A stretch of 64,000 nucleotides of DNA. Origin: Desulforapulum autotrophicum. GTDB lineage: Bacteria > Desulfobacterota > Desulfobacteria > Desulfobacterales > Desulfolunaceae. Location: positions 1 to 64,000 of the forward strand of contig DYJE01000029.1 in NCBI GenBank assembly GCA_020723285.1, given 5' to 3'. A program made the position numbers and the translations under genes. Below, one piece after another: positions 4,931 to 35,240 of this stretch (positions are counted from its first letter, which is position 1; each line of letters opens with the position of its first letter). The notes below the pieces were generated by a model that saw nothing but the letters and a program-made list of their open reading frames with translations, was not told where the DNA came from and made no database searches.

Positions 4931-7159
4931 ATGGAACCTGATCCGAACTTAAAGGCGACGTCCCTTTCGTTGGTCGAAAAAAAACACCGGAAATTGGAAT
5001 TCTTCCTCATCGGAGCCATTTTCTGCGCCGTCAGCGCCATCTCCTTTGTAATCAGCCGAGCCACCCCGTTCGGTGACGACGCACCGGCGTCCAACACCAT
5101 CTTGATGTTCATCCTCATCAACCTCAACATGATGCTGTTTCTCCTTCTGATCGTCCTGGTGTTCCGAAACATCATCAAGCTCTACTCCGACAGAAAACAC
5201 AAAATCATGGGGTCCAAACTGAGGACCAAGCTCCTGGTGGCCTTCATCGCCCTCACCCTCCTTCCCACCACGGTGCTTTTTTATTTTTCCATCCAGTTCA
5301 TTTCCACAAGCCTCGACCTGTGGTTCAATCCTCCCGTGGAAAAGGCCCTTGAGAACTCCCTGGCCATCGGGCGCCAGCTCTACACCTATGTGGAAGAGCA
5401 CAGCCGTTTCTTCATGGACAAAGTGGCGTTGCGCGTGGCCGATAACGATTACCTCGCCCCGGCCAAACGGGACGCCCTCAACCGTTATCTGTCGGCAAGC
5501 CGTGAAGAAAACCACCTGAGTTCCATGGAGATTTATGATGAAAAGGGGAACCGGCTGGCGTATTCCGCTGTGGAGGATGTGGATCTTTTCCTTAAAAAAC
5601 CCGTAGAACTTGAAGAACTTGTCAAACCTTCGGACAACGGCCCTGCAAGAACCTATTCGGAGACCGCAGCCGAACGGGAGCTGATCAGGTCCGTGGCCGC
5701 CCTGCCCATGGGCGCTCCACCGGACCGCATCAAAGGATATGTGGTCCTCTCCGTGGTGATCCCGGCAAACATGAGTCAAAGCATGACCTCCATCTCCCTG
5801 GGTTTTCAGGAATACCAGCAGATCAAGCTGTACAAAAGCCCCATCCAGCTCTCCTTTGTCATCGCCCTTTCCGTTGTGGGACTTCTGGCCGTATTCTGTG
5901 CCGTGTGGTTCGCGTTCCACATGGCCAAATCCATAACCATCCCCATCCTGAAGCTTGCGGAAGGCACGCGGCGCGTGGCTGAAGGTGACCTGGGATTCCA
6001 TATCGACATTGTCACCGACGATGAAATCGGAACCCTTGTGGGTTCGTTTAACAAGATGACCCATGACCTCAGCCTCAGCCGGACACAGCTGGCTCTGTCC
6101 GCCCGAATGCTGAGGGAGCAGAACCAGAAAATCGAGGAACGACGCCAGTACATGGAAATCGTGCTTCAAAACGTTTCAGCCGGAGTCATTTCCCTGGACC
6201 CCTGGGGCAATGTGGCCACCCTCAACAAATCGGCGGAACGGATGCTGGGGGTCAAGGCCGAACAGGTTTTGAAAAAAAACTTCAAGGAACTGCTGGACCG
6301 GCAGCATATCGGCAAAGCCGAGGAGGTGGCAGAGAAACTGGAGTTCAGCGGAGCGGGTGTGGATTTCCCTTTAAGCCTCACCCTGAACAACAGGCTCAGG
6401 AGCTTCATGGTTCACTCCAACGCCCTGAAAGACGACGACGGAAACCCGATGGGTACGGTGATCGTGTTCGACGACCTGACGGAACTTGAAAAGGCCCAGC
6501 GTGTCGCGGCCTGGCGGGAAGTGGCCCGTCGCATCGCCCATGAAGTCAAAAACCCCCTGACCCCAATCGCCCTGTCCGCCGAACGCCTGAAACGAAGATA
6601 CTCGGCCAAAGTCGCCGATCCGGTGTTCGACGAATGCACGAGGACCATCATCGACCATGTGGACCTGATCCGCAATCTGGTCAACGCCTTTTCATCCTTT
6701 GCCCGCTTCCCAATGAGCAATCCCGGCCCCTGCGACCTGCCCCTGATCATCGAGGAATCGGTTTCGCTGTACCGGGAAAGCCACAATCATGTGACTTTCG
6801 ACATTGTCCGTGAAACGGATATTCCCCTCATCAACCTGGACCGGCAGCAGATCAAGCAGGCCATGATCAACCTTCTGGACAATGCCATTTCGGCCCTTCA
6901 GAACAACGGGCTTGTCCGGATTGTCATGAACCACGACGCCCATAAAAACATCGTGACCCTCGAAGTGGCGGACAACGGGCCCGGAATTCCCGACCCCATC
7001 AAACCCCGGCTTTTCGAGCCTTATTTCTCGACAAAAAAATCAGGAACGGGCCTCGGCCTGGCCATTGTCAACTCCATCGTCGCCGATCACAACGGCAACA
7101 TCCGTGTACTGGACAACCATCCCCAGGGCGCCCGGTTTATCATCGAATTCCCGGCCTGA
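4931..7159 (+). CDS. ntrY: NtrY-like transmembrane sensor histidine kinase
   Basis: Sensor kinase of 742 residues. The order is: two N-terminal membrane segments (about 25-45 and 57-78), another near 98-118, an extracytoplasmic sensor region, a membrane segment near 310-330, HAMP (about 335-390), PAS, HisKA with the phospho-acceptor His in VARRIAHEVKNPLTPI, and HATPase_c with N box NLLDNAISAL, G1 DNGPGIP and G2 GTGLGLAIV. This is the NtrY/PrsK-type layout. It is followed after 34 bp by its cognate sigma-54-type regulator. The signal sensed is unknown; nitrogen, redox and envelope roles have been reported for the family. The DUF4390 gene just upstream may encode an accessory sensor. Confidence 0.9.
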   Translation: MEPDPNLKATSLSLVEKKHRKLEFFLIGAIFCAVSAISFVISRATPFGDDAPASNTILMFILINLNMMLFLLLIVLVFRNIIKLYSDRKHKIMGSKLRTKLLVAFIALTLLPTTVLFYFSIQFISTSLDLWFNPPVEKALENSLAIGRQLYTYVEEHSRFFMDKVALRVADNDYLAPAKRDALNRYLSASREENHLSSMEIYDEKGNRLAYSAVEDVDLFLKKPVELEELVKPSDNGPARTYSETAAERELIRSVAALPMGAPPDRIKGYVVLSVVIPANMSQSMTSISLGFQEYQQIKLYKSPIQLSFVIALSVVGLLAVFCAVWFAFHMAKSITIPILKLAEGTRRVAEGDLGFHIDIVTDDEIGTLVGSFNKMTHDLSLSRTQLALSARMLREQNQKIEERRQYMEIVLQNVSAGVISLDPWGNVATLNKSAERMLGVKAEQVLKKNFKELLDRQHIGKAEEVAEKLEFSGAGVDFPLSLTLNNRLRSFMVHSNALKDDDGNPMGTVIVFDDLTELEKAQRVAAWREVARRIAHEVKNPLTPIALSAERLKRRYSAKVADPVFDECTRTIIDHVDLIRNLVNAFSSFARFPMSNPGPCDLPLIIEESVSLYRESHNHVTFDIVRETDIPLINLDRQQIKQAMINLLDNAISALQNNGLVRIVMNHDAHKNIVTLEVADNGPGIPDPIKPRLFEPYFSTKKSGTGLGLAIVNSIVADHNGNIRVLDNHPQGARFIIEFPA

Positions 7160-23496: not shown

Positions 23497-23988
23497 ATGC
23501 CGACCATCGCCATATACCCCGGAACCTTTGATCCGTTGACCTTCGGCCATGTGGATCTCGTGGAAAGAGGGATCAAGATTTTCGACAAAGTCATCGTGTC
23601 TGTTCTGAACAATAAAAAGAAAAAACCTCTTTTTACCGTGGAAGAGCGGGTGGACATGATCCGGGAAAGCCTGAAGAATTACTCCAGGGTGGAAGTGTCC
23701 TCCTTTGACGGCCTGATCATGGATTATGCCATCGAAAAAAACGCTCAGGCCATATTGCGTGGCATGCGGGCTGTCTCCGATTTCGAAAACGAATTCCAGA
23801 TGGCCATGTTCAACCGCCGCCTGAACCGTGAAATCCAGACGGTGTTTCTCATGACCGGCATGCGCTGGATATTCATCAGCAGCACCGGTGTCAAGGAACT
23901 GGCCAGTTTCGGGGGCGAAGTCAAAGGGCTTGTGCCTCCGGTGGTGGAACGGAGACTCAGGGAAAAGTACGAAAAAGGCGGATTCTGA
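23497..23988 (+). CDS. coaD: Phosphopantetheine adenylyltransferase
   Basis: Transfers AMP from ATP to 4'-phosphopantetheine, the penultimate step of coenzyme A synthesis. The 163-residue protein begins MPTIAIYPGTFDPLTFGHVD, with the nucleotidyltransferase T/HxGH-type motif TFGHVD, and has the family motifs LRGMRAVSDFENEFQMA and ISSTGVKELA. The start at 23497 is chosen over 23479 because AGGA lies seven bases upstream and the family starts here. The next gene begins 1 bp after its stop. Confidence 0.95.
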   Translation: MPTIAIYPGTFDPLTFGHVDLVERGIKIFDKVIVSVLNNKKKKPLFTVEERVDMIRESLKNYSRVEVSSFDGLIMDYAIEKNAQAILRGMRAVSDFENEFQMAMFNRRLNREIQTVFLMTGMRWIFISSTGVKELASFGGEVKGLVPPVVERRLREKYEKGGF

Positions 23989-23989
23989 C

Positions 23990-24883
23990 ATGGACCTCTG
24001 GCAGCTGCACATCTTCACGAAAGTCGTCGAACTGAAAAGCTTTTCCAAGGCAGGCGCAGCCATCCACCTGTCACAGCCCACGGTGAGCAGCCACATCAAG
24101 GATCTTGAAGATCATTTTGAATGCCGCCTCATCGACAGGATGGGCAAAGAAGCCCTGCCCACCAAAGCCGGGGCTCTTCTCTACGGATACGCCAGAAAAC
24201 TCCTGACCCTGAAAAATGAAACGGAAACCGCCCTGGCCCAGTTCAAGGGCAAAACCAAAGGTCATCTGGTGGTGGGCGGCAGCACCATTCCCGGCGGTTA
24301 CATCCTTCCCCAGATTATCGGCTCCTTTATCAAAAACTATCCCGAAGTCACCGTATCCCTTGAAATCGGGGACACGGAAGACATCGTCAAGGCCATTCGT
24401 GAAGGACTGATCGAAATCGGTCTGGTGGGTGCACGGTACAGTGACAAGAACCTGATTCAGGAAGAGGTGATCAGGGACAGCATGGCCCTGGTGATCCCCC
24501 CGGACCACACATGGAAAGACCTTCGCCGTGTCACCCTCGACATGCTGAAAGACGAGCCCTTCATCGCACGGGAATACGGCTCAGGCACGTTGAAATCCCT
24601 TACACGGAGCCTTCAGGACGCGGGCTCGGAGAGTTCGGCCTTAAAAATCGTGGCCACCATGGGAAACACAGCGGCCGTCCGCCAGGGCGTAAAAAGCGGC
24701 ATCGGAGTATCCATCCTCTCCACCAAGGCGGTGGAAGACGATCTCGCAAACGGCAAACTCCTGGCCCTTGACGTGGAAGGTGTGGACCTCAGCCGTTATT
24801 TTTTCCTGACCACCCACCGATCCCGGACCCTGTCTCCCCTGTGCCAGAGTTTTGCGGAAGCCATACGGGAGGCCGGTCTTTGA
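23990..24883 (+). CDS. LysR-family transcriptional regulator
   Basis: 297 residues. The N-terminal winged helix-turn-helix has FTKVVELKSFSKAGAAIHLS and QPTVSSHIKDLE; a periplasmic-binding-protein-like effector domain follows from about residue 90 (GHLVVGGSTIPGGYILP). It starts 1 bp after coaD's stop and so is probably co-transcribed. The sequence style is like the CysL/selenium-metabolism-associated LysR subgroup, but target and inducer cannot be read from the sequence. A rho-independent terminator overlaps its 3' end. Confidence 0.9.
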   Translation: MDLWQLHIFTKVVELKSFSKAGAAIHLSQPTVSSHIKDLEDHFECRLIDRMGKEALPTKAGALLYGYARKLLTLKNETETALAQFKGKTKGHLVVGGSTIPGGYILPQIIGSFIKNYPEVTVSLEIGDTEDIVKAIREGLIEIGLVGARYSDKNLIQEEVIRDSMALVIPPDHTWKDLRRVTLDMLKDEPFIAREYGSGTLKSLTRSLQDAGSESSALKIVATMGNTAAVRQGVKSGIGVSILSTKAVEDDLANGKLLALDVEGVDLSRYFFLTTHRSRTLSPLCQSFAEAIREAGL

Positions 24884-25422: not shown

Positions 25423-25713
25423 ATGACTCTTACAAAAGCCGATATTGTCGACACCGTTACGGAACGGTTGGGATACTCCAAAATCAGATCTTCCGAAGTT
25501 ATTGAAACCGTTCTTGAAATCATGAAAAAATCCCTGGAAAACGGCGAAGATGTCCTGATTTCAGGATTCGGAAAGCTCTGCGTCAAGGACAAGGACGCCA
25601 GGAAAGGCCGGAATCCCGCCACAGGAGAAGACCTGATCCTTGATAAACGCCGCGTTGTCACCTTCAAAAGCTCAACGATTCTGAGAAACAGAGTCAACGA
25701 CAAAAAAGCCTGA
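25423..25713 (+). CDS. ihfA: Integration host factor alpha-type DNA-bending protein
   Basis: 96 residues from ATG 25423, the expected IHF-alpha length. It has the IHF-alpha start MTLTKADIVDTV, then DVLISGFGKLCVKDKDARKG, and the DNA-intercalating GRNPATGE loop with its Pro. IHF bends DNA at promoters, often sigma-54-type ones, and helps recombination. The frame is open nine codons further upstream, but the family start is at 25423. The gene converges with the S24/S26-like gene and overlaps its 3' end by 20 bp. HU is the alternative assignment. Confidence 0.88.
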   Translation: MTLTKADIVDTVTERLGYSKIRSSEVIETVLEIMKKSLENGEDVLISGFGKLCVKDKDARKGRNPATGEDLILDKRRVVTFKSSTILRNRVNDKKA

Positions 25714-26164
25714 TTCTCCGTCTTATCGAAAGAAACGCTGATGAGAACCGGAGGATCAGATTCATGCGGCTGAAAAGGGCGATCCACTTCCGCTCCGGGC
25801 CCAGCCCCGCCCAGACAGGCCGCCCGTTTCTCGTCACGGATTCCAGGATTCCCAGAACATATTTCCCTGGAATCCGTGTGTCGGTCTCCCGGACATGATC
25901 CCCTTTGAACACGGTGTTTCCCTTCCCGACAGCCATGACCCTGTGAATGACAAGACACGATGAAAAAGGATGGAGAAAGGCCAGAACATCCCCAGGATAT
26001 ACCGGTTTTCCTGTGAGTGGGGCAACCGTCAGGGTGTCCCCGTCACGGATCAGCGGATACATGCTGTTCCCTCCGCAGATAAAACGGCACCTTTTTCCTT
26101 CTGAAAGAAGCGGTGCAATAAGATGGCCCATTTCATCCGCCGGAACCGAAACCGTCTGTTTCAA
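25694..26164 (-). CDS. S24/S26 signal-peptidase-like protein of the RiPP operon
   Basis: 156 residues with the type I signal peptidase/LexA-like fold: catalytic Ser34 in GNSMYPLI, then VYPGDVLAF, IHRV (74-77) and VFKGDH (85-90), which carry the His and Lys candidates. No N-terminal membrane anchor is visible; the C-terminus is hydrophobic and Arg-rich (SSAFLSIRRRIRLF). Small proteins of this type recur in RiPP operons, where they may trim the leader or act after export. Its ATG overlaps the stop of the P-loop gene by 4 bp. It is the last gene of the six-gene operon. Confidence 0.82.
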   Translation of the reverse strand: MKQTVSVPADEMGHLIAPLLSEGKRCRFICGGNSMYPLIRDGDTLTVAPLTGKPVYPGDVLAFLHPFSSCLVIHRVMAVGKGNTVFKGDHVRETDTRIPGKYVLGILESVTRNGRPVWAGLGPERKWIALFSRMNLILRFSSAFLSIRRRIRLFCR

Positions 26165-27072
26165 AGTTTCACCCGTCCCTCCCCCAATGCGCGTGATACG
26201 TCCATGATCCTTTGGGTCACATCATGATCCGGCCTGAAATACAGATGATAGCAGGGGATTGCGTCGACTATCCGGCCGCAGAGATCCATCATGGCCGGAA
26301 TACGGTCTCGGTCATACCAGGGAATAGACACAAGAGGAAGCAGATGATGAAGGGCCGTTGACCTTTCACATCGGTCGATCCGGTTTTCCTGGCCGTGATG
26401 AAGAAAGAACACCGCCGAAAGCGGCATGGACGTTGGGTTTGCATCATGGTTGTCGCTGTGCCAGGGAGTTCCGTATATCCGGAAACCCTGCGGATTCTCC
26501 CGGATCACCACACGTTCATCACTCAGCACCGTCACGTCGGATTGCCCAGAAAAAAGGCTGGCCAGCGTACTTTTCCCGGCACCGGATTTTCCTCCGAACA
26601 ACAGACCCCGACCGTCGATCCCCACGCCGGTGCTGTGAAGAAGTCCTCCATTTCGAAAAGCCAGGGCATTGACCAGGATCATCTGGTCCAGAGGATGAGA
26701 CAAGGGGGGAAAAGGTTGGGGTTCTGCGGAGGGATCGATATAGACATCCACCTGAAGACCGTCGCGATCAAACAGAGCGGTCCAGAATGGAACGTCAAAG
26801 CCCGGAGGCTGGAACACCGCGGCCCGGGTTTCACCTTTCCTTCGGATGGTCCAGGCTGCCCCGCTGTTGAATAAAATTTCCCACTCCCCGGTCTGGGGAG
26901 CATTTTCGAAGACGACCCGGACAATGACATCCATGGTGTCTGAGCCTGCCGGTTCTTCAGACAAAAAAGCCCTGATGGCCGGGCCGAGTGCTTCGAAACC
27001 CGGCGTGGCATCCCCAAAAATCACGTACCGGACGCCCCCGACACACAGCACCTTTTCATGACCATGACCCAA
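26161..27072 (-). CDS. HPr-kinase-like P-loop protein of the RiPP operon
   Basis: 303 residues. The C-terminal half carries GLLHSTGVGI and the Walker A GGKSGAGKST (160-169), as in the HPr kinase/PEP-carboxykinase fold; VLSDERVVI looks like the Walker-B equivalent. The N-terminal half is unassigned. Homologues accompany PqqD and radical SAM genes in RiPP clusters, for example ScmC of the SynChlorMet cassette, and HPr-kinase-like enzymes can phosphorylate peptides in some lasso clusters. Here it could modify a Ser/Thr of the precursor, which has several. It starts directly after the precursor stop. Function is inferred from family and context. Confidence 0.82.
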   Translation of the reverse strand: MGHGHEKVLCVGGVRYVIFGDATPGFEALGPAIRAFLSEEPAGSDTMDVIVRVVFENAPQTGEWEILFNSGAAWTIRRKGETRAAVFQPPGFDVPFWTALFDRDGLQVDVYIDPSAEPQPFPPLSHPLDQMILVNALAFRNGGLLHSTGVGIDGRGLLFGGKSGAGKSTLASLFSGQSDVTVLSDERVVIRENPQGFRIYGTPWHSDNHDANPTSMPLSAVFFLHHGQENRIDRCERSTALHHLLPLVSIPWYDRDRIPAMMDLCGRIVDAIPCYHLYFRPDHDVTQRIMDVSRALGEGRVKL

Positions 27073-27246
27073 TCAGGACCCCAATCCGTGGCAGTTGGAA
27101 CCCATGCAGTTAAAGGGATTCAGCCGGGGCACGCCTCCTGACGTGGTTGTCTTGCAGGATGTGCCCAGGACCTCTTCAGCTGCAAGGTCGATGGCCGTGA
27201 GCACCGGTTTGGAGTACGTCCGTTTTTTTTTGCTGTTATCCGTCAT
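27073..27246 (-). CDS. RiPP precursor peptide (57 residues, three Cys)
   Basis: The start at 27246 has GGGAG six bases upstream and lies 1 bp after the radical SAM stop; the frame is open to 27267. The leader is Lys-rich and then carries YSKPVLTAIDL and AAEEVLGTSC, the KPxL...L...AEEVLG-x-x-C pattern typical of precursors handled by PqqD-like proteins and radical SAM/SPASM enzymes. The core is Gly/Ser/Thr/Asn-rich with Cys at 31, 47 and 52 and ends HGLGS. Candidate modification sites are the Cys residues (thioether bridges) and the Thr run TTTS at 33-36. The mature product is unknown. There is no separate signal peptide. Confidence 0.85.
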   Translation of the reverse strand: MTDNSKKKRTYSKPVLTAIDLAAEEVLGTSCKTTTSGGVPRLNPFNCMGSNCHGLGS

Positions 27247-27247
27247 G

Positions 27248-28324
27248 TCACACTCCCAGTCTTGCAATGTATTCGTGCCGCAACTGTCCCATACGGCACA
27301 GGTATTCTGATTTGCTCACGTCCGAACCGGTTTCCAGGCCGGACACCGGCGGACAGTAGCCGCAAAGGGTGATGCGCTCGCATGCCCTGCACGGATGGGC
27401 GGAATCGGCCTCGAAGCGGTCCACAGTCCGGCTCACCTGTTCCCAGGCCGTTGGAAAATCCAGGCTCCTCAAATCGGCCCGGATGCCTGACGTAATCAGA
27501 CAGGGCTGAAGAAATCCGTCTGACGTGATGTGGCCGCAGGTTTTTCCCGCGCCGCATATATAAAGAAACCGGTCCATGGCTGTTTTTGAGCTTTTCTTCC
27601 AGAACTCAGCCCAGTCAGCGGCCCTTTTGGGGTCACCAAACTCGCATGCCACCGCTGTCGCCGGAGAAACCCGATGGTGCAAAGGCGTTTGATCTCCATC
27701 GAGACGGGGCATCACGGCCGCGTCGAACCGGAACCTGACACCCAGGTTCCGGGCCATGGCTTCCATATCGTCAAGCTCGTGCACGTTCAGATCCATAAGA
27801 ACGGTTTTCAGACTGACCCTGACACCATTCTCATGAAGTCTTTTGATCCCGGCCATGGCTCTCTGGCAAGCATCGGCCGAACCGGTCACGCGGCCATAGG
27901 TCTCAGGGTTTGATCCGTAAACCGACACCTCCACCTGAATGGGCGGGTATTCCCTGAACAGGCGGACATGCTCTTCGGTGACCGTGGACCCGTTGGTAAA
28001 CACCACCACCAGCATGCCCCGCTTCCTTGCATGGGTGTAAATGTGGGCGAAATCGCTCCGCAACAGGGGCTCCCCGCCGGTCAGAAGAAGGTACAGACAC
28101 CCCGCATCGGCCAGATCGTCAATGATCGAAATGGCCATGGCTGTGTCTATCCCATCTTTTTTTTTCCTGTCCCCTTCGGGAAGATAGCAGTGGACGCATG
28201 AAAAATTACAGCGCGTGGTCAGTTCAAAGCTGCCCGAAAGGGGAATCCGGTCTCTGGCCACCCGGTTTCTGAACCGCAGGAAAAAATCATCCGTCGAGAC
28301 CTGAGGCGCAATGCAGTTCAGCAC
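27248..28324 (-). CDS. Radical SAM/SPASM peptide-modifying enzyme
   Basis: 358 residues. The SAM-cleaving [4Fe-4S] motif is C39-x3-C43-x2-C46 (TRCNFSCVHC), followed by LLLTGGEPLL. The C-terminal SPASM region has Cys at about 257, 263, 275, 312, 315, 321, 324 and 343, enough for two auxiliary clusters. Such enzymes install thioether or C-C bonds in precursor peptides. It overlaps the PqqD-like gene by 7 bp and is followed 1 bp later by the precursor gene, so its substrate is almost certainly that peptide. The reaction type cannot be told from the sequence. Confidence 0.92.
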   Translation of the reverse strand: MLNCIAPQVSTDDFFLRFRNRVARDRIPLSGSFELTTRCNFSCVHCYLPEGDRKKKDGIDTAMAISIIDDLADAGCLYLLLTGGEPLLRSDFAHIYTHARKRGMLVVVFTNGSTVTEEHVRLFREYPPIQVEVSVYGSNPETYGRVTGSADACQRAMAGIKRLHENGVRVSLKTVLMDLNVHELDDMEAMARNLGVRFRFDAAVMPRLDGDQTPLHHRVSPATAVACEFGDPKRAADWAEFWKKSSKTAMDRFLYICGAGKTCGHITSDGFLQPCLITSGIRADLRSLDFPTAWEQVSRTVDRFEADSAHPCRACERITLCGYCPPVSGLETGSDVSKSEYLCRMGQLRHEYIARLGV

Positions 28325-28614
28325 CCGGCCTCCACAACAAGTCCCGACGATGTGAGCTGCGCCATGAACTCCATCAGGTCCTTTTCCGCCACGGCCTCTT
28401 CCACATCGAATTCAGCCGTGATTCTGTCCCGAAGTTCTTCAAGCGACCGCGTACCGTCGATGCCGTCCCAGATAAACGCCCCCACAGGGTCCACGGTATA
28501 GATGTTCCGCATATCGGCCAGCTGACCCCTTACAGGGACGATGAGTTTTTCTCCGGCAATGATGCGGGTGACCACATCGTCCACCTTGATATATTTGATG
28601 CCATGCGATTTCAT
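28318..28614 (-). CDS. PqqD-like RiPP recognition (chaperone) protein
   Basis: 98 residues with the PqqD winged-helix pattern: IKVDDVVTRII, NIYTVDPVGAFIWDGIDGTRSLEE (start of the recognition helix region) and a C-terminal helix with LMEFMAQLTSSGLV. PqqD-type domains bind the leader and present it to the radical SAM enzyme. It starts 24 bp after the stop of the C25 peptidase gene, and its 3' end overlaps the radical SAM gene by 7 bp. Resembles ScmD-type free-standing PqqD proteins. Confidence 0.88.
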   Translation of the reverse strand: MKSHGIKYIKVDDVVTRIIAGEKLIVPVRGQLADMRNIYTVDPVGAFIWDGIDGTRSLEELRDRITAEFDVEEAVAEKDLMEFMAQLTSSGLVVEAGC

Positions 28615-28638
28615 GGTTTTTCCTTTTTAATACAACCT

Positions 28639-31600
28639 TCAGTCCGCGAACCGGAGGGCAGGATCGCCCATCAGCACAAACACATCCGTCAGATCCGTGT
28701 CCCCGATCTTGGTCGTGTAGTTGCGGCAGGCCAAACGCACCGCTTCACCCAGGGTTCCATTACGATGGGCAAAGACCGCGCGCATGAATTCCTGGTCGAG
28801 TACCGTGGCCAGGGGAGCTGCGGAGAGGCCGGAGGGAGCCCACACCGCAATGGCACCTTTGCCTGCAGCGGTCACCAGATTTTCGGCGATGGAATCGTAA
28901 CCGGGAACGGCGAACAGAGACGTGGCGCAGGTCATCAGCGCCATGACCGGCTGCCGGTTGCCATTGGCCAGCGTGGAAATATCGGCGGATTCCAGAAGCC
29001 CTTCCTCGGCCAGCCGGTCGATACCGCCGTGACCCAGATAATTGAACAGGAACGCGCCCTGGTTCAACGCCTGGATCATGCGGGTTTTCACCGTATCGAA
29101 GCTGCTCTGGCCCAGAGTGAACCTAAGCCTTTCCAATCCCTTCGGAATGCATGCCTCCACTTTTATGTTGAATTCCGGGAAATTACCGCCCTGGTCCGCA
29201 TCGTCCACCGCCATGATCACCCGGTCTGTCCAGGAACCGCCGCTTTTTTCGTAAGCTTTGATCTTTTCGACCATGACCAGCATGTCCTCGCTGCTGTGGA
29301 CGGGGAATCGGCCGATGGCCATGTCGGGCTTGCCGTCATCACCCGCCACATCCACCAGCTGGTTGTCCGAGGGAAACAGGCCGTCCGGTGTGCCGGTCAT
29401 GAGTGGCGGAATCAGGCAGTCGTTATACCCCCTGATATTCTTGTAATCGTAACTTCCGTCGCCCACAAGGGCCACAAAACCCGGCCTGATCCGCCAGTTG
29501 TTGTAGGCGTAATCCAGAAAATCCTTGATGGCTTCGGGATGGGATGTTCCGTCATTGAACTCGTTCATGATGTCGTCCAGAACCACAGTTTTGACACTGT
29601 AACCCCGGCTTTTTCTGTACTCCGCAAGGGCCAGGGCACCTTCAAGGAGGTTTTTCGGCGTGATTACCAGATAGGTCGCCCCATTCATTCGCGACTTGAG
29701 GTTCGAGCGGGACACACCGTCCCAGTCAAACGGCGCACCGCACTCCGCCGTATCCACCGCCAGATAGCGGTCTTCCGAATTCCGGCTCCTGAAGCTCACA
29801 CAGGTCTTCCCGTCCACCTGTTCCTTGAACGTATCGGTGATCAGGACCGGTTTCTTTTTATCCGTGATGTCGAACACCTTCACATCGCTGCCGGTGAATC
29901 CCGCCACCCGGATCAGATCCTGACCGCGGCCGGTCGCCGAAAGGACTCCGCCTGCCGCTGTGTAGCTCCGGGGGTATGTTAGATCCACGGAATCGAAATA
30001 GAAGATGCTGTACGGCGCGCCATGGGCGAGAACCCCGGTGAGGGTCACGGTGTTGGTGACGTCCAGAATGGCCGGGGAAACCCTGAAAGCCAATTCGGCT
30101 TTCTGTGTGCCGTCAAACGCTCCTTGTCCCACGGATACACCGTTAACCGCCACGTTGACCGTATGATCCGGGAACGCCGTGGTCAGGGAACCCCCTTTGA
30201 GAGTCACCGTCAGAAGAGCGTCGCCACCGCTCCGGTCAAGGCCCGGTGAAGGGACCTCAACCGTCAGTGTTCCCAGGCTCGCGTCACCGGCCACCACATA
30301 TTCGCCCACCCAGTAATCGTCGTAAGGATCGGTGTAGTACGCGGTCAGGGGATAGAGATCTTCCTCCACATGGACGGTATCCATGAACGTGTAAGCTCCG
30401 GCAGCGCTTCCCGCCGACGTTCCTCCGCCTGTCACCGCCTGAGTCATGATGCTGCCTTTGCCGGGCTTCAGCATGTAAACGCTCTGATCCGTGTAATTGC
30501 TGTTGGGGGATTCGCCGTAAAAATAAATCCCCTGGTTGCCTGTTGCCGGAAGATACGCCACGGTAAAACCCTTGTTCGTGAGAACCAGATTGCCGGTTCC
30601 GATCAGGGCAGCCACGCGGCTTTCCGTGTAATTCAGGCTTGAAGCGATTTCCGATGCCGGAACATAGCAAAGCCCTTCTTCCGTCACGGTGATTTTCATC
30701 CGGGCCCTTGCGCCCTGCCCGTAACCGGAATAAAAAGCCGCAAGATCGCTTTTCAGTTTAGCCGTGTTCCAGCGGGCCAGGATTTTTGACGCAGAAACCC
30801 TTTTTTTCACATGGGGTGAGCGGCTGAAACTTCCAGCTTTCAAAAACACGGACCGGCTTTTTTTTGCAGCGGTTCCTGATTCGGACAGCGAGGATAACGA
30901 TCCGCCCGCCGTGACCTTGAACGGACCGTAATCCCTTCTCCGGCCTTTCACTTCCACTTCCGTCAGCTTGTACGTGTAGGTTTTTCCCGGAACGGCATCA
31001 CTGTCAACCAGCCGGTAGGTTCCGCCCTGGGGAGACACCAGGAGCCCTGTGAGAAGGCCCTGGTGAACCGCCCTGTATTTGCCTTTGGCCGTATCCTTCC
31101 GTTTGAGATAGAAACCCAGGGTTCCCATCTCCGCCGCGGTCTTCCATTCGATAACCACGCTGCCGTTTTCCTCGGTGGCGCTAAACGAGGTGATCAGCGC
31201 CAAAAGGGGAATGTAGACTTCGTCGGAGTAGAGAGTTCCCGATGTGTCCCAGTAATCCACACGGATGCTGTTTTCACCGGCCACCCTGAGGATTCCGCTG
31301 TTGTTTCCCGTTCCCGTTGACGTGGACACCGTGAGGCCGCCAGACGCGTTGGTGAAAACGCCGGTGTTGGCTCCCGTTTCAGTGAGGATCACGGTTTCCG
31401 AATCCCCGGTGACATTGTCCACCACGGTCACCGACACCGTGTTCACGATTCCCGCCGACGTATTGGCAGCGCTGTCCGTCACCTTGATGTAAACCGATGT
31501 TTCCCCGGCGCTCATGTCATAACCGTCCACCGGATTCCCGGCCGGGTCGGTAAATTCCACTTTGCCGCCGCTGGCCACGGTGAACACATCCACCACGCCG

Positions 31601-34600
31601 GTGGGCACGGCGGTCATCTGAGCGCTCAGCGTCGATCTGGGCGTGAACGACGACGGCATCACCACCGCTGTCCAGGTTCCGTATGCCGCCGTGTCCGAGC
31701 TGTTGTCATAAGAGCTGTAGAAAAAACCGCTTCCGCTGCTGCACGACGCTGTATCCGTGGAAACCAGATTGCCTCCGGCGTCGTAATACGCGGTGGTGTA
31801 GCAGGTGAGGGGGGCAAAACCGTATCCGCCGGTGTAGATGGTGTCGTTCAGGCCGGAGCCTTCAAGATCCCGGCAGAACAGGTTGTCTTCGTAATAAAAC
31901 GCCGAACTGTTGGCCGACATGTAGCCCGGAATGTAATCCGTCGCTGATGCGGAAACCCCGACGGAAGCAGGAATTTCACTGCTGTAGGCAAACACGGAGT
32001 TGGTGATCAGCGATTCATCGGGTGTCGCCGTGTCGATGATGTAGGTGTAACTCACCGTCATGCTTTCATGGATGGCAAGGGTCGTGGGACAGACCGTGGT
32101 GGTCACGTCACTGAAATCCACACCCTGAACCCAGGCCGCGAAAGCAGTTCCCGAACGCTGCCGTGAAAGAAGCACGGAACTGCCGCTCTGATACCGGGCT
32201 GACAGCATGGGCATCGGGTAAACTGTGTCGGTGGATCTGCATCCGTTCGACACAATCGCCATGCGCTGAGATCCCGCGCTGTCCACGGTCACCGAAACTG
32301 CCGAGCTGATCGCGTCGCCTTGGGTTTTAAACCGGTAATCCACATGCAATTGAGGATGGGTCAATGTGTAGACCTCGAAATTCACACTGTTGTTCGCGTA
32401 TTCAAGGCCTACAGCCACCGTGTTTTCCGTGGCGTTCTGGGCAACACCGTTGCCCAGGGTGATCAAAACACCTTCTGCGGCATCCCCTGCCCCGTTATCG
32501 TTGGTATGGCCTGTTCCCCAGACAAAGGTGTGATCTCGGGATACCGACGTTCCAAGACTTGCGGTATTATACTCGGTCGTGGCATTGACACCATTACCAC
32601 CGTTGTTACCGGTCACCTGGACCCGCTGGACCGTCCATGCCGTTCCCCATTCCACAACCATCACTGTACTTGTAGCAGTGGCAAGGGTGGCACCGCCGCT
32701 GTCCCGGCTCCAGCTGATGGTTCCTGAACCTGTGGGGTATATTCTGGCATGACAGGTTTTGGTGTTGGCGGCGGTGCCTTCGGATGTGTCACACCCGGCC
32801 CCGTTGTATCCGCCCATGAGCATGATCCGGCTGAGATTCGTCCATCCGGAGGCAAAGGTGTCGGTCCCTGTTGTGGCCGTTCCCGTGTGCGCCACACGTT
32901 CCACACCCAGAAGTTTGAATCCGTTAACCGCCTGATCGTTCAGACATTCCACCACGGTGATGACTCCGGCCCATCCGTTCACGGATGCGCCCCGTGTGAA
33001 TCCGAGCCGGTTGGCTGCCGAGGAAACGGCAAGATCACCTGTCCCCGTGGGGTCGGATGTCAACGCGATGTAACAGGAATTGGGGCCCAGATTGGTGGAG
33101 CCAGAACCGTCACTGCCCTGTACCATGACGAAATAGTTGGCGGCCAGATTCTGGTTCAACGTCAGTTCATAAGTCGTTCCGGAGAACTGGGCGGCGGTCA
33201 CCGGATATTCCGTGACCCGGAATGGATTCGTCACGCAGGTTCCCCCCTGCATGGCTCCGCCGTTCACCACGATCCCGGTCAAAGGTACGGAACCGACACT
33301 GGTCAGGGTGGCTGAATACGTCAGGCTGTCCCCGGCTTTGGCAAGCCCCCGTGCCGATGAACTCAGGCTGGCGGTCATGGCTGCGGCATCCGTTATGACG
33401 CTGACACTGTTGTTGCCCTGATGGTTGTCAAAAGTGGACCCGCCCACGGTAAACACAGATGTGACCTGCCCACCTTCATCCAGGGCCTGGACATCCACAG
33501 CCGCGTTGAACACCAGATCCGGCAGGGTTGCGCCGGACGCCACGGGCAGAGATCCGGTGTAGGTGAAAACCACTGTGGACCCCGATTCATCATCGGTCGA
33601 AACACCTTCCCAGACACCACTTGGCGTGTTCACATAGGCCAGCCCCGCGGGCAGGGCGGCGGTCACCTGAACGCTCCCGGCCGTACTGGGTCCGTTGTTC
33701 GTCACCGACACCGTGTAGCTTCCGTTGGCTCCGGCAACAAAGGGGCCGTTTCCTGTGGCGGTCACTGAAAGATCCGCCACGTTGGAATTGGTCACCGATA
33801 AAACTTCCGCGTTCAGAAGCACCATGTCCGTTCCGGTCTGGTATCGTGTTGAAACAGAGGTGTCCCCGGCGCTCAGGTACTGGCTTACATCATAAAAATC
33901 CAGATCCATGGCAAGAGCGTTGCTGTCGTTCCCGGCTGTGGAGGACAGGCCTGAGTTGGGATCTCCCGACGGTAATGTCCGCGTGGAATTGTACTGATTG
34001 TTCAAGGGATTTGCTGTGGAGGTGATGCTGTGGCCGTTGAAATAAAGATTTTCGTAGCTGTTGGAATTCCCCACATCGCCTTCCCAGCTCAAATGCCCGT
34101 GTTTGCCGCTGATATTGCTTGAAGGAATCTGGAAATTGGACGGGGTCAAATCGATATGATCGCTCCCCGAAGCGCTGTAGTAAAGCTTGAACCCGTCGTA
34201 GACATTCACTACGCGCAAGGGCTGAGTGGACGACTCCGGGTATTCATACACCACAATCATCGCCCAGCCCGCCACAATGGTGGAGACGGACGAATGGGGC
34301 GTGTTGGTCCAGACACTGAGGTTTGAAACCGTGTATGTCCCCGCACCGCCGCTTTGGACATACGCGGTCACATCCTTGAAACCACCGAAGTAATCTTCAT
34401 TGGAATCCGTACCGCCGTCAAACCGGGCAAAATCCTCGGTGAAGCTTCTGTCCGCGCTGGTAATATTCAGGGCTGAACTTCCGGTGCGGGTCAGGGTGAT
34501 GGCGTAATCCGGAGCTGAAGTTCCGATCTGGCTGTTCCAGGACCCGGCCCAATAAAGGTAAGCGGCTTTTACCGTGGTCCCCGCAGGAAGGGCCAGCGTG

Positions 34601-34776
34601 CTGCTGCCCGATGAGGCCACGGCTGTGTCCGAGGTTTTAAGTGACCGCCCGGTGGCCGTGAAATCAACCTTCCCCGCAAAGCTGTTGTACAGTGTGATGT
34701 CCGTGTAGGCACTGCCATTATCAGGCCAGATGATCCAAACAAGAGTCGCCAGCAGCAAGGGCAGAACCCGTCTCAT
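28639..34776 (-). CDS. Giant secreted C25 (gingipain-like) cysteine peptidase
   Basis: 2045 residues from the ATG at 34776, which has GGGGGGA just upstream; the frame is open to 34863. The signal peptide is MRRVLPLLLATLVWIIW.... Next comes a DUF3344-like adhesive region (about 20-340) with AAYLYWAGSW, then DUF11-type beta-repeats (NVADLSVTATGNGPF, YTVSVTNNGPS), further Ig-like modules, a fibronectin-like domain near NGSVVIEWKTAAEMG, and the C-terminal C25 catalytic domain. The catalytic His is in NYLGHGG (about 1916) and the catalytic Cys in MTCATSLF (about 1950). No known C-terminal sorting signal follows. It is the first gene of the RiPP operon, 24 bp before the PqqD-like gene. It could process the RiPP or its target, or be an unrelated surface protease. 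Confidence 0.9.
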   Translation of the reverse strand: MRRVLPLLLATLVWIIWPDNGSAYTDITLYNSFAGKVDFTATGRSLKTSDTAVASSGSSTLALPAGTTVKAAYLYWAGSWNSQIGTSAPDYAITLTRTGSSALNITSADRSFTEDFARFDGGTDSNEDYFGGFKDVTAYVQSGGAGTYTVSNLSVWTNTPHSSVSTIVAGWAMIVVYEYPESSTQPLRVVNVYDGFKLYYSASGSDHIDLTPSNFQIPSSNISGKHGHLSWEGDVGNSNSYENLYFNGHSITSTANPLNNQYNSTRTLPSGDPNSGLSSTAGNDSNALAMDLDFYDVSQYLSAGDTSVSTRYQTGTDMVLLNAEVLSVTNSNVADLSVTATGNGPFVAGANGSYTVSVTNNGPSTAGSVQVTAALPAGLAYVNTPSGVWEGVSTDDESGSTVVFTYTGSLPVASGATLPDLVFNAAVDVQALDEGGQVTSVFTVGGSTFDNHQGNNSVSVITDAAAMTASLSSSARGLAKAGDSLTYSATLTSVGSVPLTGIVVNGGAMQGGTCVTNPFRVTEYPVTAAQFSGTTYELTLNQNLAANYFVMVQGSDGSGSTNLGPNSCYIALTSDPTGTGDLAVSSAANRLGFTRGASVNGWAGVITVVECLNDQAVNGFKLLGVERVAHTGTATTGTDTFASGWTNLSRIMLMGGYNGAGCDTSEGTAANTKTCHARIYPTGSGTISWSRDSGGATLATATSTVMVVEWGTAWTVQRVQVTGNNGGNGVNATTEYNTASLGTSVSRDHTFVWGTGHTNDNGAGDAAEGVLITLGNGVAQNATENTVAVGLEYANNSVNFEVYTLTHPQLHVDYRFKTQGDAISSAVSVTVDSAGSQRMAIVSNGCRSTDTVYPMPMLSARYQSGSSVLLSRQRSGTAFAAWVQGVDFSDVTTTVCPTTLAIHESMTVSYTYIIDTATPDESLITNSVFAYSSEIPASVGVSASATDYIPGYMSANSSAFYYEDNLFCRDLEGSGLNDTIYTGGYGFAPLTCYTTAYYDAGGNLVSTDTASCSSGSGFFYSSYDNSSDTAAYGTWTAVVMPSSFTPRSTLSAQMTAVPTGVVDVFTVASGGKVEFTDPAGNPVDGYDMSAGETSVYIKVTDSAANTSAGIVNTVSVTVVDNVTGDSETVILTETGANTGVFTNASGGLTVSTSTGTGNNSGILRVAGENSIRVDYWDTSGTLYSDEVYIPLLALITSFSATEENGSVVIEWKTAAEMGTLGFYLKRKDTAKGKYRAVHQGLLTGLLVSPQGGTYRLVDSDAVPGKTYTYKLTEVEVKGRRRDYGPFKVTAGGSLSSLSESGTAAKKSRSVFLKAGSFSRSPHVKKRVSASKILARWNTAKLKSDLAAFYSGYGQGARARMKITVTEEGLCYVPASEIASSLNYTESRVAALIGTGNLVLTNKGFTVAYLPATGNQGIYFYGESPNSNYTDQSVYMLKPGKGSIMTQAVTGGGTSAGSAAGAYTFMDTVHVEEDLYPLTAYYTDPYDDYWVGEYVVAGDASLGTLTVEVPSPGLDRSGGDALLTVTLKGGSLTTAFPDHTVNVAVNGVSVGQGAFDGTQKAELAFRVSPAILDVTNTVTLTGVLAHGAPYSIFYFDSVDLTYPRSYTAAGGVLSATGRGQDLIRVAGFTGSDVKVFDITDKKKPVLITDTFKEQVDGKTCVSFRSRNSEDRYLAVDTAECGAPFDWDGVSRSNLKSRMNGATYLVITPKNLLEGALALAEYRKSRGYSVKTVVLDDIMNEFNDGTSHPEAIKDFLDYAYNNWRIRPGFVALVGDGSYDYKNIRGYNDCLIPPLMTGTPDGLFPSDNQLVDVAGDDGKPDMAIGRFPVHSSEDMLVMVEKIKAYEKSGGSWTDRVIMAVDDADQGGNFPEFNIKVEACIPKGLERLRFTLGQSSFDTVKTRMIQALNQGAFLFNYLGHGGIDRLAEEGLLESADISTLANGNRQPVMALMTCATSLFAVPGYDSIAENLVTAAGKGAIAVWAPSGLSAAPLATVLDQEFMRAVFAHRNGTLGEAVRLACRNYTTKIGDTDLTDVFVLMGDPALRFAD

Positions 34777-35211
34777 TTTCCCCCCGTTTTTCAGAACATT
34801 GAATATGATTCCCCATAAAAAGCCGACAAGTTGATGGGCGTAAAGTCGCCCGGCAAAGTTCATCCCTTGCGGCTTAAGCCATCACGTTCAATTGACGTTT
34901 CATGGCACTGAATTTTTATGGATTTATATTTTTCCCGATAAAGTCTTTTCACAGTTTCACCCTGATTTCCAGCCTTTTTTCCATCTTTTTTCATCATCAT
35001 GGACGTAGCAGATTCCCCAAAATGCCGAGTTGGACATGTCTGACGTGAATGGGCCTGTCTGTTCTAACCGTCACGGCATGGCAAATCACAGGGTGAACAT
35101 ACCCCACTTCGGGCATTTGTCGTCCCATATCTTCGATCGGTACGAAAGGATTTTAAAATCGGGATATCTCTGAATATATTGAAGCAGGTGAACTGCGGCT
35201 TGGGCGGGTAA
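34777..35211. other. Intergenic region upstream of the C25/RiPP operon
   Basis: About 435 bp between the C25 peptidase start and the terminator of the qmo operon. It is AT-richer than its flanks. I see no gene and no promoter with good hexamers at proper spacing; the RiPP operon promoter must lie here. Confidence 0.5.
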
Positions 35212-35240
35212 ACAAAAAAGGAGAGGGTTTCCCCTCTCCT
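35212..35240 (-). terminator. Rho-independent terminator of the apr-qmo operon
   Basis: On the minus strand AGGAGAGGG-GAAA-CCCTCTCCT forms a strong stem, followed directly by TTTTTTG. It lies about 32 bp after the qmoC stop. Confidence 0.9.

Follow-up and report, generated by a model that had tools for sequence, protein, structure and literature searches.

The window examined here is a 64,000-nucleotide stretch of Desulforapulum autotrophicum DNA (contig DYJE01000029.1; genome of 5.44 Mb in 92 contigs). It contains an operon in which the genes of a pathway for a ribosomally synthesized and post-translationally modified peptide (RiPP) adjoin the gene of a giant C25 peptidase. All six genes lie on the (−) strand. 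The first encodes the C25 peptidase (28639–34776). It is followed by genes for a PqqD-like protein, i.e., a RiPP recognition element (28318–28614), a radical S-adenosylmethionine (SAM) maturase with a GTG start (27248–28324), a 57-residue precursor peptide (27073–27246), an HPr-kinase-like protein with a TTG start, which is a putative peptide kinase (26161–27072), and an S26-like peptidase of the SEC11 (Ser-His) kind, also with a TTG start, which is the putative leader peptidase (25694–26164). The genes after the peptidase are referred to below as the cassette. The original prediction had described six codirectional genes with junctions of +24, −7, +1, 0, and −4 bp, and the coordinates of the open reading frames (ORFs) confirm this. 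The 24 bp between the C25 and pqqD genes (28615–28638) hold a purine-rich, ribosome-site-like stretch, and a consensus scan found no promoter-like or terminator-like match on the (−) strand between the two genes. The scan did return a (+) strand terminator-like match at 28600–28617, overlapping this junction region, and a (−) strand terminator-like hairpin at 35236–35221, between qmoC and the C25 gene; such matches are equally common in shuffled sequence (15 vs 14.1).

The frame of the C25 gene is open up to an ATG at 34863, and the start at 34776 directly precedes a signal-peptide-like stretch. A variable N-terminal part with a DUF11 domain (47.9 bits) comes next, and the protein closes with a constant C-terminal module of ~850 residues (28639–31212). 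According to alignments and a predicted structure (predicted local distance difference test, pLDDT, 83.6), this module comprises an Ig-like part, a PorU-like region, a CBM35/36-like domain, and the C25 catalytic domain. The last of these scores 275.9 bits with Peptidase_C25 (PF01364) against a Pfam cut-off of 23, which places the protein in the C25 family. The module model matches gingipain R with a Z of 36.8 over 319 residues and latent PorU with a Z of 23.7 over 543 residues, and its region ~276–415 matches CBM35/36 domains with a Z of about 10. The catalytic His codon (29029–29031), within a GHG motif that aligns to that of gingipain, and the catalytic Cys codon (28927–28929) correspond to H728 and C762 in module numbering; both are invariant in 20 of 20 aligned C25 proteins. 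Judged by these residues, the active site is intact. The position aligned to Asp163 of gingipain R (RgpB), a residue that we take to determine Arg specificity, is Asn in the window when read by eye. Therefore, Arg specificity of the gingipain R type looks unlikely.

The module aligns in one piece (~1206–1238 to 2042–2072) with 11 of 17 other C25 proteins and in pieces with the remaining six. Conversely, the N-termini of the 17 compared proteins differ, and only that of L011 shares a stretch with the window (residues 631–1007, 51%); L and G numbers here denote loci and genomes. Named N-terminal domains of C25 proteins at cassettes are DUF11 (window), LTD (L052), subtilase and PKD (L146), and SdrD_B/GEVED (L139), and those of paralogues away from cassettes are C1 papain plus lectin (L170) and laminin G (L188). 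In others (e.g., L145, L132, and L140), C25 is the only named domain. The C25 domain ends 3–8 residues from the C-terminus in 20 of 21 linked proteins of type 1 (cassette types 2–4 are described below), L053 being the exception. This position was dropped as a marker of linkage, as many unlinked C25 proteins end likewise. The C25 protein of L053 (6117–11120) and a C1-plus-lectin protein of L017 (6677–8581) both have GGCFIT-like tails at their ends, similar to a C-terminal sorting motif, presumably the one called the CFI-box.

The precursor has no family match in Pfam or NCBIfam and is the sole match of its own family in its genome. It was delineated from a family alignment of 12 sequences and 61 distinct relatives. 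Its leader carries YSKPVL, and the motif [YW]xxPx[LIV] is present in 60 of the 61 distinct precursors (with Leu in the last position in 43/61), as is CK in 59. The conserved C-terminal part, CKTTTSGGVPRLNPFNCMGSNCHGLGS (27076–27156, from the alignments of relatives), ends in Ser and is probably the core. The last residue is Ser in 56 of the 61, Thr in two, and Tyr, Ile, or Lys in one each, the Lys-ending sequence being cut by a contig end. Among the 20 residues before the precursor end, the Ser share is 9.4%. The precursor profile includes the C-terminus, so the search is biased toward that C-terminus. All 20 precursors counted as C25-linked end in GS or AS, and 19 have the YxxPx[LIV] leader, the exception being L137 with Ala in the last position. 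Counted from the first CK on, there are three Cys in 19 of them and two in L151; the 20 include L143 (G499), which is linked solely through a contig-end reading. At L144, a 121-residue ORF (5405–5770) with a nitrile-hydratase-like leader and a Cys-rich tail was noticed by eye as a possible further RiPP precursor.

The HPr-kinase-like protein scores 14.6 bits with Hpr_kinase_C, below the Pfam cut-off of 33.3, and is recognized by its fold and invariant residues. Its predicted structure (pLDDT, 91.7) has the fold of HPr kinase and phosphoenolpyruvate carboxykinase (PEPCK). It matches HPr kinase structures with a Z of 12.1–12.4 (root-mean-square deviation, rmsd, 3.1–3.2; 126–130 residues) and PEPCK structures with a Z of up to 13.7 (rmsd 5–6; ~250 residues). 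H146, G161, G166, K167, and D185 are invariant in 30 sequences. Passages of PMC10368454 give HPr-like lasso peptide kinases the motif H-G-G-G-K-S-D-D and place all earlier lasso-peptide phosphorylations on the C-terminal Ser. The last position of this motif is Glu in the window, and its middle Gly is not conserved in all relatives. Since a YxxPxL leader, an HPr-like kinase, and a C-terminal Ser typify phosphorylated lasso peptides, we propose by analogy that the kinase may act on the C-terminal Ser of the precursor. As a strict pair, kinase and C-terminal Ser are weakened by type 3 cassettes and by L017 and L057, as discussed below. The idea that the kinase is absent from loci with several radical SAM genes (multi-SAM loci) was dropped, because there the kinase part sits inside long radical SAM frames. 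Such fusion-like frames were seen in L056, L059, L060, L063, L157, L159–L162, L164, L166, and L167, mostly multi-SAM loci.

The PqqD-like protein (PF05402, 61.9 bits; cut-off 23.4) and the radical SAM enzyme (PF04055, 88.5 bits; cut-off 29.5) are clear members of their Pfam families. In 10 homologues of the latter, C39, C43, and C46 are invariant, as are the C-terminal C257, C275, C312, C315, C321, C324, and C343. The earlier label of a radical SAM/SPASM enzyme thus holds for the CxxxCxxC motif and the C-terminal cysteines, but the Pfam SPASM model has no match in the window protein. SkfB is the best solved relative of the family profile. Among NCBIfam models, those for heme-synthesis radical SAM enzymes and for the mycofactocin maturase score best but fall far short of their cut-offs, and none of the 25 NCBIfam matches listed exceeds its cut-off. 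The S26-like protein scores 17.9 bits with Peptidase_S24 (cut-off 23.3) and 35.6 bits with both TIGR02228 (cut-off 51.85) and TIGR02754 (cut-off 63.25), below the threshold in each case. Its Ser34 and His74 are invariant in 8 of 8 homologues, and the family profile matches SEC11C with an E value of 1.7e-07.

Five of eight genomes of the window's family match at 1e-20; only G007 is close (56% over the length), the others reaching ~30% over a part. A scan of genome contigs gave six loci, namely L011 (a Deltaproteobacteria metagenome-assembled genome, MAG; 46%) and L012 (an Acidobacteria MAG; 38%) together with four distant loci; the two distant loci that were mapped, L013 and L014, have no C25 gene. 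A four-sequence profile matches 31 of 395 genomes of the window's phylum at 1e-45, and a ten-sequence profile matches 56 of 297 genomes of the Acidobacteria-like phylum at 1e-60. These phylum labels are deduced, that of the window from qmoC and relatives, whereas "Acidobacteria-like" means the phylum of L012; the mapping profiles were built from the same loci that they map.

In the Acidobacteria-like phylum, a C25 domain lies within 15 kb of the cassette in 16 of 27 loci above 380 bits, and within 5 kb in 12 of 27, where 0.29 would be expected by chance from the C25 number and genome size. Distances were measured from domain to domain. One of the 16 (G445) has its C25 gene 11 kb away, not adjacent, and four of the 11 unlinked loci are limited by contig ends (G433, G669, G603, and G499). 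In G499 the cassette runs to the contig end and a C25 frame starts at base 1 of that contig, as if it were circular. In the next score band, 0 of 22 loci have C25 at this distance, and 9 of the 12 examined are multi-SAM; the lowest band has 6 of 22 linked, all of type 2. The count covers 71 of 91 radical SAM rows (27, 22, and 22 by score band), the other 20 being second or third hits of counted clusters, and uses the C25 rows among the matches listed for the same genomes, so that weak C25 genes may be missed. Genomes with a locus above 380 bits have C25 in 21 of 26 cases vs 106 of 297 overall (odds ratio 9.2, p 1e-6; kinship not removed).

Outside this phylum, eight genomes carry a close cassette: G000, G115, G046, G340, G286, and G082 (>390 bits), G007, and that of L011. 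C25 is found at the cassette in four of the eight, i.e., the window, L052 (G340), L053 (G286), and L011, where it occurs twice. Expressed as C25 genes at the cassette per genome, this is 2/2 for that of L011, 1/1 for that of L012, 1/1 for G286, 1/3 for G000, 1/4 for G340 (which has a second C25 gene at a type 3 cassette), and 0/2 for G007. G018 and G092 have one C25 gene 14–15 kb away from the cassette. The C25 gene is upstream of the cassette in the window, L138, and L145–L148 and downstream in L012, L132, L137, and L140; therefore, the linkage has survived rearrangement. The gene order also recurs in other genomes and is thus not due to chance. Together with the co-variation described next, these counts (16/27 vs 0.29, and 4/8) support the original prediction that the RiPP system includes the C25 protein, and they make clear that homologous clusters do not consistently lack it.

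The distances between radical SAM enzymes and those between C25 proteins are correlated (Mantel r 0.80 over 19 loci). The correlation persists for 16 loci without near copies (r 0.755) and for 12 loci of the Acidobacteria-like phylum (r 0.795), with 0 of 5000 permutations reaching the value in each of the three tests. Shared species history contributes to it. Matching clades appear in quick trees without bootstrap, with values of 99 in the C25 tree (14 rows, 10 linked) and 100 in the radical SAM tree (11 rows, 9 linked). In either tree, the window's clade contains members of both phyla, and the members common to the two trees are the window, L011, L052, L138, L145, L146–L148, and L155; on the radical SAM side the clade also contains the C25-free L017 and L068. 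Its unlinked C25 rows are L170 (G340, on a 98-kb contig), L215 and L221 (G471), and L216 (G446), and a radical SAM match occurs in each of these three genomes. G677 has, away from its cassette, the C25 gene L188, a paralogue of L134. Because of such paralogues, several C25 proteins may be served in trans by a single cassette. Another 12 unlinked C25 rows, from genomes without a radical SAM match among those listed, form a clade with weak support (81); some of them are type 4 loci. A partnership between cassette and C25 protein is thus very probable.

Further cassette types were encountered, in part among 40 additional C25 loci, which were taken from the upper part of the list with known cassette C25s excluded and are not a random sample. 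Type 2 is a radical SAM gene followed by a C25 gene, usually with HprK or PqqD before them. Type 3 has at least three of PqqD, radical SAM, HprK-like, and S26 genes around C25 (L189, L191, L192, and L193; also L173 in G340). L225 has radical SAM and S26 genes beside C25, L222 and L228 have an HprK-PqqD-SAM set some kb off, L219 and L223 have weak PqqD and HprK matches, and L212 and L213 have a single partner. Four type 2-like precursors (L175, L177, L222, and L228) end in Ser. A second precursor family, YEKPxxxTYTEEEI...IGPAQT-like and not Ser-ending, was seen in the C25 loci L189, L191, L192, L193, L173, and L225. In type 4, a protein encoded near C25 combines a PqqD domain with an export-signal-like segment and a Cys-rich tail (L185, 16256–17119; L187, 8466–8954; L219, 12398–12883; L223, 4896–5414), possibly a fusion of recognition element and precursor. 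NTP_transf_5 is present at the type 4 loci L186, L187, L219, and L223. It was also found near the C25-free L149 and L152, and polysaccharide-export domains were found near L149 and L150 (in the ORFs scanned); the L068 cassette likewise stands beside such domains.

That a RiPP cassette stands next to the gene of a giant surface-type protease, here and in distant relatives, suggests joint action in a mode not yet described. At the level of sequence, we can rely on the gene content, the recurrence of the C25–cassette pair in at least two deep groups, the co-variation, the apparently intact active site, and the constant module on changing N-termini. We propose, with a probability of about 0.5, that the operon makes a small modified peptide together with a surface partner, and that the C25 module is the peptide's client. 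The PqqD protein would hold the YSKPVL leader, and cross-links in the three-Cys core (CK...C...C...GS) would be introduced by the radical SAM enzyme. The HPr-like kinase would phosphorylate the C-terminal Ser, as do most known lasso-peptide kinases, and the S26-like enzyme would cut off the leader in the cytosol. The C25 protein would leave by the Sec route, and outside the cytoplasm the peptide would restrain or license the protease or become joined to it. This proposal is favored because the module is constant while the N-termini vary, because C25 paralogues occur away from cassettes, and because an S26-like gene is present in 15 of 20 linked loci.

Several observations weigh against this proposal. 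G007 is the closest relative by radical SAM (56%), yet its cassette lacks C25, so the link is frequent and not obligatory. The cassettes of G115, G046, and G082 also have no C25, nor do the stretches examined in 25 lower-scoring genomes of the window's phylum (several limited by contig ends) or the related loci L149, L150, L152–L154, and L156, which belong to one clade, or L014. No partner of note was found at 29 of the 40 further C25 loci. The contigs of the unlinked L215, L221, and L216 span only 3.8–5.8 kb; their neighborhood is therefore largely unseen, and a cassette could escape view. Precursors of C25-free cassettes, where found, are similar and also end in Ser. Therefore, the peptide is also used where C25 is lacking, and the Ser is not a pointer to C25. 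Regarding the kinase, L017 and L057 have the kinase-like gene yet their precursors end in Ile and Tyr, respectively, and type 3 cassettes combine a P-loop kinase-like protein with precursors lacking a C-terminal Ser. BsfK, an HPr-like lasso kinase of a deltaproteobacterium, modifies Ser3 and not the C-terminus, according to passages of PMC10368454. A peptide exporter was not found among the six operon genes.

G007 itself offers two side observations. A C1-plus-lectin gene is divergent to its pqqD and 31% identical to the L170 N-terminus, and a 1163-residue ORF near the cassette has no Pfam match. That G007 keeps a C25 gene of the same clade elsewhere was considered and dropped, as its two C25 genes fall elsewhere in the tree.

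An unlikely alternative is that C25 acts as a maturation protease, the modified peptide being exported with some leader and trimmed extracellularly by the C25 domain. The active site is intact in 20 of 20 proteins, and the profile found no S26-like gene in five of the 20 linked cassettes (L011, L144, and L146–L148) and in five of six type 2 loci; C25 could therefore be the sole protease in those stretches. However, 15 of 20 linked loci, including the window, do have an S26-like gene (in L134 ~6 kb off and on the other strand; in L151 a weak match), and similar precursors occur in cassettes without C25. Changing N-termini of adhesin or protease type are not required in a leader peptidase, nor are paralogues, and the differing N-termini on a constant module make such a role less likely. 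The Asn at the position aligned to Asp163 of gingipain R also speaks against it.

It is improbable that the peptide is a covalent anchor, with the PorU-like C25 module working as a sortase that joins its passenger to the modified peptide or to an envelope glycan. The longest structural match is indeed PorU, a C25 sortase (Z 23.7, 543 residues), the constant module contains a CBM35/36-like domain, the N-termini vary while the module stays, and the related cassettes L068, L149, and L150 are beside polysaccharide-export domains. Yet the PorU model NF033707 gives 242.5 bits, under its cut-off of 420, and no site is known at which the passenger would be cleaved from the module. Even less probable is mere neighborhood, with the peptide acting on its own as an antibiotic or signal and C25 being a co-regulated exoprotease: homologous cassettes without C25 and C25 genes without cassettes agree with it, but the pairing recurs in two deep groups and in several cassette types, where it has outlasted rearrangement, and radical SAM and C25 co-vary.

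Returning to the client proposal, we tentatively, and with more doubt than belief, extend it to an undescribed surface-protein system in which a ribosomal peptide, cross-linked by the radical SAM enzyme and phosphorylated on the C-terminal Ser, would be the dedicated regulator or covalent group of PorU-like C25 modules with interchangeable adhesin or protease N-termini. RiPPs are mostly viewed as free antibiotics, signals, or cofactors. If the proposal is true, they also help to build or control the cell surface, PorU-like C25 proteases outside Bacteroidetes gain a testable substrate or ligand, and C-terminal Ser phosphorylation is extended from lasso to radical SAM peptides.

The operon is adjoined by qmoC, an electron-transfer gene of sulfate reducers (NCBIfam, 433.8 bits; cut-off 300). 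Downstream of the operon lies a convergent ORF (25423–25701), judged by eye to be HU/IHF-like, and a selenium-metabolism LysR regulator is encoded at 23888–24883 (NF040786, 292.1 bits vs a cut-off of 250). The window has no Rfam match.

Among known systems, lasso peptide clusters with an HPr-like kinase come close. They share NTP_transf_5, found here in sister cassettes; this family occurs in paeninodin clusters. In contrast to lasso clusters, the operon has a radical SAM enzyme, an S26-like peptidase, and C25 in place of the cyclase and B2 protease, and neither a lasso cyclase nor a B2 leader peptidase was matched among the six genes and the few neighbors scanned. Clusters of the ThcoK type and that of BsfK, as described in passages of PMC10368454, further share the PqqD-type recognition element, the YxxPxL-type leader, the C-terminal Ser, and an HPr-like kinase with most of the H-G-G-G-K-S-D-D motif. 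A survey of anaerobes mentions an HPr kinase in some lasso clusters (PMC4289311).

The original prediction had compared the operon with the SynChlorMet cassette. The kinship stands, since PqqD, HPr-like, and radical SAM proteins are combined in both, but the ScmC (26.8 bits; cut-off 125), ScmD (33; 100), ScmE (76.6; 400), and ScmF (71.6; 400) models all score far below cut-off against the window proteins. Moreover, the window operon has a single radical SAM gene. In the multi-SAM relatives, the kinase part is inside a long radical SAM frame, and their score band is the one with 0 of 22 loci having C25 within 15 kb. Sactipeptide maturases (SkfB and AlbA) are comparable in that SkfB is the nearest solved relative and the core contains Cys. 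They differ in that the precursors here match no NCBIfam family and the window enzyme scores best with heme-synthesis and mycofactocin models. The S26-like protein resembles the nickel superoxide dismutase (Ni-SOD) maturation protease and SEC11-type signal peptidase in its Ser and His and in its similar scores with both, while falling below both model cut-offs.

With PorU and the gingipains the window protein shares the C25 fold with its His and Cys and the PorU-like N-terminal region. Unlike in PorU, however, the C25 domain is terminal, without the regions that follow it in PorU, and stands behind varying N-termini. SprA of type IX secretion was matched in 0 of 22 genomes, but control genomes were unmatched too. 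The original prediction knew of no described pathway with this combination, and searches of open-licence PMC papers gave either no paper or listed titles that do not describe a C25–RiPP cassette pairing. The terms C25, gingipain, signal peptidase, and S26 do not occur in a review of RiPP leader proteases (PMC10885120), nor do C25, HPr, and S26 in a survey of Bacteroidales RiPPs (PMC10352776). Overall, the operon is built from familiar RiPP components that are repeatedly joined with PorU-like surface proteases.

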